Shown here one piece after another: positions 19,832 through 57,252 of a stretch of DNA of 64,000 bases (its first letter is position 1; every line of letters starts with the position of its first letter). Location of the stretch: NCBI RefSeq assembly GCF_037893015.1, contig NC_133658.1, forward strand, positions 885,095,477 through 885,159,476. The letters run 5' to 3'. This DNA comes from Macrotis lagotis (Eukaryota > Chordata > Mammalia > Peramelemorphia > Peramelidae). The notes below the pieces were generated by a model. It saw only the letters and a list, made by a program, of their open reading frames with translations, was not told the DNA's origin and made no database searches. Both the position numbers and the translations under genes were made by a program.

Positions 19832-19925
19832 AATTTCACCATGTCTGTTTCCAAGCTCATTGCCAGAGAGATCTTCGACTCTCGTGGAAACCCCACAGTT
19901 GAGGTTGAACTACACACTCATAAAG
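19832..19925 (+). CDS. Enolase exon 2: 9 nt of 5' UTR plus residues 1-29 (first base)
   Basis: The acceptor is TTCCTTACAG. The ATG at 19841 sits in TTTCACCATGT, a fair Kozak context. It codes [19 protein letters not shown] and continues VEVELHTHK, the N-terminal strand common to all enolases. The 85 coding nt equal the ENO1 exon. The donor, AAG then GTGCAT, is weak compared with the other exons. Confidence 0.95.

Positions 19926-57252: not shown

Follow-up and report, generated by a model that had tools for sequence, protein, structure and literature searches.

Structure of the enolase gene and its locus

The window analysed here, that is, the whole 64,000-nucleotide stretch of the Macrotis lagotis genome at C1:885095477-885159476, carries on its plus strand an enolase gene with 11 coding exons between C1:885115317 and C1:885152728, AG/GT borders throughout and 480 codons followed by a stop. 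The exon number, the stop-free frame and the splice borders had been put forward in the original prediction and are all present. The enolase-type exon phases that it described could also be confirmed, the phases of 10 of 10 junctions being the same as in ENO1 of the same genome. In the numbering used here, the untranslated first exon typical of ENO genes counts as exon 1. Coding starts in exon 2 (19841..19925), which has an open frame and a GT donor and whose start codon lies 9 bases 3' of the splice acceptor TTACAG. It continues on the same strand through exons 3 (25602..25697), 4 (35274..35332, the 4a form), 5 (38995..39064), 6 (50021..50154), 7 (50420..50642), 8 (51738..51941), 9 (52599..52800), 10 (53914..54022) and 11 (54382..54440). 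The last coding exon, exon 12 (57051..57252, plus strand), encodes a C-terminal extension composed of SSEK repeats and a marsupial tail motif, followed by the stop codon. An AATAAA sequence at 57303..57308 on the plus strand, about 50 bases 3' of the stop, is the probable polyadenylation signal. In the intron between exons 5 and 6, two adjacent reading frames (44666-45475) resemble, by eye, the remains of a LINE reverse transcriptase.

A Pfam scan detected both enolase domains across the core of the encoded protein (PF00113, 470.3 bits at a cut-off of 21.5; PF03952, 181.8 bits at a cut-off of 35), and the protein passes the equivalog model TIGR01060 with 551.7 bits (cut-off 300). Rfam gave 0 matches within the 64-kb window. 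The 10 introns between the coding exons and the frame without a stop rule out a processed copy or pseudogene. Stops, frameshifts and broken splice sites, the lesions of a decayed pseudogene, were found in none of the 11 main exons and occur only in the relic exon 4b described below.

A composition scan revealed a CpG island at 9551..10650, located 9.2-10.3 kb 5' of the start codon, which is a candidate for the promoter and exon 1. A copy of the ENO1 promoter island, duplicated along with the gene, was also considered, and no similarity was detected between the island at 9551-10650 and the one upstream of ENO1. The island is adjoined by a minisatellite at 10557-11859, in which a 45-bp unit is repeated 29 times with 94% matches. 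Long reading frames run through both strands of the minisatellite because of the length of its unit, and they are likely repeat artefacts and not genes.

About 49 kb 3' of the window gene, the same strand carries an intact ENO1; the distance from exon 7 to exon 7 is 64 kb. The coding exons of this ENO1 have lengths of 85, 96, 59, 70, 134, 223, 198, 202, 109, 59 and 70 bp. Nine of the first ten are equally long in the window gene, in which exon 8 is extended by 6 bp and the last coding part measures 202 bp as opposed to 70 bp in ENO1; all length changes relative to ENO1 are in frame. Upstream of the window gene, the minus strand carries three carbonic-anhydrase exons and the plus strand one SLC2A-type exon. 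The neighbours were searched for with carbonic-anhydrase, SLC2A, RERE and GPR157 probes, of which RERE, GPR157 and two of the three SLC2A probes yielded nothing with an E value of at most 0.05. On human chromosome 1, the genes follow one another in the order SLC2A, CA6, ENO1. Because the window gene adjoins ENO1 on the same strand, shares the flanking gene order and has matching exons, it is a tandem duplicate of ENO1.

The ENO1 gene of M. lagotis also has an alternative exon 4b, which encodes VSRPVKYINEFLATALCTQ, possesses splice sites and corresponds to the opossum isoform P0021. The window gene contains a dead relic of this exon at 32031..32089 on the plus strand, which was recognised by blastn (E 1.6e-5 to ENO1 exon 4b) and by alignment. 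The acceptor of the relic has changed from AG to AA (32029-32030) and its donor from GT to GG (32090-32091), and the relic ends in an in-frame TAG. The relic is thus a built-in control, which shows that an unused exon decayed in the same gene whose 11 other exons stayed intact. It joins the adjacency, the common strand and the same exon phases as a mark of tandem duplication. A deep fourth vertebrate paralogue, which was also considered, is excluded by the adjacency to ENO1, the common exon structure, the relic of the alternative exon and the grouping on the ENO1 side of the tree. Many ENO1-type copies consisting of exons only are present on many contigs of the genome and are probably processed pseudogenes; of 40 scored matches to exon 7, 38 start at query base at least 20, near the exon border. 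In PMC2881024, 4 ENO1 retrocopies are reported for human and 27 for mouse.

Active site and other conserved residues

Codon 245 of the window gene, located in exon 8, is GGG and encodes glycine (51803-51805), and codon 345 in exon 9 is AGA and encodes arginine (52760-52762). Among the 71 further enolases with 430-450 residues that were retrieved for comparison, the first column is Asp in 71 of 71 and the second Lys in 71 of 71. The two replacements were the core of the original prediction, and both are real features of the assembled sequence. Asp245 is one of the three carboxylates holding the essential magnesium ion of enolase, and Lys345 takes the proton in the established reaction mechanism. 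Consequently, neither the metal site (Ser40, Asp245, Glu295, Asp320) nor the catalytic pair (Glu210, Lys345) is complete. The statement that the remaining active-site residues are kept stands as well, 11 of the 13 catalytic positions being retained: Ser40, His158, Gln166, Glu167 and Glu210 (the last four in exon 7), Glu295 and Asp320 (exon 9), His373, Arg374 and Ser375 (exon 10) and Lys396 (exon 11, 54385-54387). All 13 residues are found in 68 of the 71 compared enolases, the exceptions being three proteins with a change at Glu210 or Glu295. A list of enolase active-site residues is also contained in PMC5237310.

The window protein has undergone further changes. T41I (exon 3, 25637-25639), G160D, K162S and A164P (all exon 7) and two extra residues at about 265-266, in the region of the 6-bp in-frame insertion of exon 8, affect the stretches of the mobile catalytic loops. 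Moreover, G113P (exon 6, 50047-50049) falls within helix 108-126 of the koala protein model, and both G113P and A164P may damage folding. The window protein retains Arg9, Glu21, Arg414 and Glu417, which correspond to the inter-subunit ion-pair residues at the dimer interface of yeast enolase.

If columns conserved in at least 97% of the sequences are considered (n=282), 40 are altered in the window protein, 31 in the Tasmanian devil copy and between 9 (koala) and 17 in each of the five remaining marsupial relatives. Within this set, catalytic columns (2 of 13) and other conserved columns (38 of 269) have been altered at equal rates, which indicates that catalysis is no longer protected and that the active site has not been singled out. 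The loss of active-site residues can therefore not be called selective, as the original prediction had done. Biased gene conversion as the force behind the two losses found no clear support in the GC/AT counts against ENO1: in this comparison, which is not polarised, codons with a changed residue differ 53 times towards GC and 71 times towards AT, and synonymous codons 58 and 33 times, respectively.

Marsupial relatives and rate of change

Predicted proteins of the same gene were found in koala (P0007), Tasmanian devil (P0008), Dromiciops (P0009), Gracilinanus (P0010), Petaurus (P0012) and wombat (P0014), which are annotated as alpha-enolase-like, enolase-like or enolase. They were recovered by a protein search in which six longer entries (P0001-P0006, 524-813 residues) came first, followed at ranks 7 to 14 by marsupial proteins, with koala appearing twice and the 509-residue P0011 as the one exception. 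The window protein is 77.0% identical to the koala protein, 75.5% to the devil protein and 73.5% to ENO1 of the same genome. All 13 catalytic residues are present in 6 of 6 relatives, and both losses therefore arose in the lineage of M. lagotis. Erosion is also seen in the devil copy, in which 31 of 282 conserved columns and residue 41 (T41V) have changed while the catalytic set is whole; this copy carries one additional residue in the loop that holds the insertion of the window protein. A full-text literature search found no paper that deals with an ENO1-like gene of marsupials.

The tail motif TTLA[VI]FMCH is shared by the window protein and the five full-length relatives and is not part of the shorter isoforms P0013 and P0014. 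Among the 131 proteins that were compared, it is confined to these marsupial species. A search with the koala end yielded 10 candidates and missed known members, and a profile search covered the best 120 of 7,994 matches; for these reasons, the absence of the motif outside marsupials is only suggested by the sequences compared. In the koala protein model (mean pLDDT 77.7), tail residues 434-457 score below 50, and hence no structure is inferred for the tail. An origin of the tail from the 3' UTR of ENO1 was considered and is unsupported, with a score of 30 against a maximum of 35 in 100 shuffles. A 12-bp in-frame tandem repeat at 57125-57191 (5.6 copies) extends the C-terminal tail of the window protein with SSEK units and is missing in the six relatives.

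The protein search and tree that had been proposed as a check of the original prediction yielded a marsupial clade on the ENO1 side. In the main tree of 37 rows, from which exon 4 and the tail were excluded, the seven marsupial rows including the window form one clade (100/99), and a split supported by 97/92 places this clade with ENO1 and apart from ENO2 and ENO3. The window protein is sister to the Tasmanian devil protein (99/93 in this tree, 100/95 in a tree of 42 rows). The 18 other ENO1 rows group apart from the marsupial clade (92/80); a clade with marsupial ENO1 was not recovered, yet the AU test does not reject it (p 0.166), and the 42-row tree gave no firm position for the marsupial clade either. 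Long branches are involved, and the duplication may date from the marsupial stem or be older. With respect to the placement of the protein, the original prediction was right in that it is more distant from ENO1-3 than these are from one another (69.8-73.5% as against 82.9-87.1% identity, six ENO1-3 proteins). It had not anticipated a tandem duplicate of ENO1 that belongs to a clade restricted to marsupials among the retrieved proteins and that has relatives with intact active sites.

The distance from ENO1-3 is due to fast evolution. When the amino-acid differences between the window protein and ENO1 were polarised with other enolases, 91 fell on the window side and 11 on the ENO1 side, with 13 unassigned. 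A codon model against ENO1 of the same genome gave an omega of 0.23 (dN 0.159, dS 0.676) and rejected an omega of 1 with a likelihood ratio of 94; a value of 1 is what the original prediction had named as the sign of decay. If dS is split equally, simple arithmetic would give the window side an omega of about 0.42 and the ENO1 side one of 0.05. On these sequence-derived figures, the window protein is constrained, yet relaxed. The changes separating it from the marsupial majority affect 38 of the 311 columns with at least 90% conservation, as against 23 of 78 less conserved columns (Fisher p 0.0004), and a stricter column set gave 21 of 230 versus 9 of 44 (p 0.036). The differences avoid conserved columns, and late changes therefore still feel constraint. 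The private changes of the window copy amount to 31, namely 30 substitutions and one inserted residue. As these figures come from one genome and are averaged over branches, they may also be compatible with a recent relaxation during the last few million years.

The retention of CpG dinucleotides was dropped as a proof of selection, the excess being at the border of codon positions 3 and 1, where C-to-T changes are mostly synonymous. At this border, the core of the window gene has 14 CpG with 47.3 expected and that of ENO1 has 2 with 42.8 expected. In the exons of the window gene, chiefly 7, 8 and 12, the observed-to-expected ratio of CpG is 0.36 as compared to 0.08 in the introns; the abundance of CpG in the exons perhaps reflects low germline methylation.

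A probably disarmed enolase and its possible role

With moderate confidence, we interpret the gene as a spliced marsupial tandem copy of ENO1 that has lost Asp245 and the catalytic Lys and whose product, predicted to lack enolase activity, likely forms dimers with ENO1 without itself catalysing the reaction. From the established chemistry of enolase, the broken metal site would be expected to abolish catalysis, and traces of activity could conceivably survive the replacement of Lys by Arg. The core would still fold and dimerise, as judged from the retained ion-pair residues, and the most economical role would be that of a non-catalytic subunit paired with ENO1. The tail, in which charged SSEK repeats precede a short end that is both hydrophobic and basic, might then supply a location or a partner and thereby place or tune ENO1. 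The copy, dead by prediction, was likely retained for another function, and a live gene under selection is more likely than a decaying one. What remains of the pseudoenzyme proposed in the original prediction is an intact, spliced paralogue, a predicted pseudoenzyme that selection maintained over the greater part of its history; the selective nature of the loss has to be given up.

The strongest competitor, which we find less probable while still taking it seriously, is that a formerly active marsupial ENO1-like enzyme has recently lost its function, that D245G and K345R belong to its earliest lesions and that no stop has been fixed so far. Such early decay would agree with the accelerated evolution and the 31 private changes, with the equally frequent alteration of catalytic and other conserved columns and with the fact that the gene's own exon 4b is already dead. 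However, none of the 11 exons has lost a splice site or its frame, the length differences from ENO1 preserve the frame, the tail motif has been retained, and the changes avoid conserved columns (p 0.0004). Moreover, in neutral simulations from which frameshifts were left out, 61 amino-acid changes, which is the number of differences from the marsupial majority, left a stop-free frame in just 23 of 400 runs; with 110 changes, which approximates the terminal branch of 0.26 in the 37-row tree, this was the case in 1 of 400 runs.

It is improbable that the protein has kept a low enolase activity, brought about by Arg345 and another metal arrangement. The score above the TIGR01060 cut-off and the 11 retained catalytic residues are in line with it, and residual activity has been proposed for moth enolases with similar changes, according to PMC5237310; however, it would have to do without the carboxylate that holds the essential magnesium together with two others and without the lysine that takes the proton. 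Least probable is that D245G and K345R are errors of the assembly or peculiar to the individual, in a gene for an otherwise active enzyme. The data come from a single genome and the six relatives have Asp and Lys, but both changes sit among 40 altered conserved columns, and the published assembly was based on HiFi and other reads with a stated coverage of 39x (PMC11239497); the same paper describes a transcriptome that includes testis.

Few known enzymes are as conserved as enolase. A marsupial group has an additional enolase with a conserved tail of its own, which has been disarmed in one lineage and not in the six relatives. This natural series of intact, eroding and disarmed copies next to an intact ENO1 allows one to ask what role an enolase has without producing PEP. 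Automated annotation would label the window gene as a working enolase since it passes TIGR01060, and this label is likely wrong.

Several known systems may be compared with the preferred reading of a dead, dimerising copy. The six marsupial relatives belong to the same clade and share the tail motif in the five full-length proteins; they differ in keeping 13 of 13 catalytic residues and in lacking the SSEK repeat. ENO1 of the same genome resembles the window gene in its exon phases and as its tandem neighbour, whereas it has an intact active site, the end ...RNFRNPLAK and an exon 4b with splice sites. In the lepidopteran Eno2 proteins (BmEno2 of Bombyx, enolase II of Antheraea), a metal-binding Asp is replaced by Asn and an active-site Lys by Arg, and expression is found mainly in the testis, as far as the available sections of PMC5237310 state. 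These are likewise lineage-specific paralogues with a replaced metal Asp and a Lys-to-Arg change, the match to positions 245 and 345 being by residue type only; they differ in being from insects, in their independent origin and in that an active-site Glu and His have also changed. ENO4 is a vertebrate relative of enolase that, according to PMC7132099, has substituted critical residues and is proposed to be a partner of ENO1 that acts as a carrier into flagella. It differs from the window gene in being a separate gene, whereas the window gene groups with ENO1 in a tree built without an ENO4 row; no match named ENO4 was listed in the protein search or among the best 120 of 7,994 matches of the profile search. 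As a speculative extension, which we consider unlikely in its entirety, a tailed marsupial enolase derived from ENO1 might have been turned into a dedicated dead subunit in the bilby line, carrying ENO1 to a site such as the sperm flagellum. This would be a third independent route to a broken site after ENO4 and moth Eno2, with an Asp lost and a Lys changed to Arg as in the moth. Finally, τ-crystallin is ENO1 serving as a lens protein and hence in a non-metabolic job (PMC1508162); it differs in being the product of the ENO1 gene itself and not of a separate disarmed copy.
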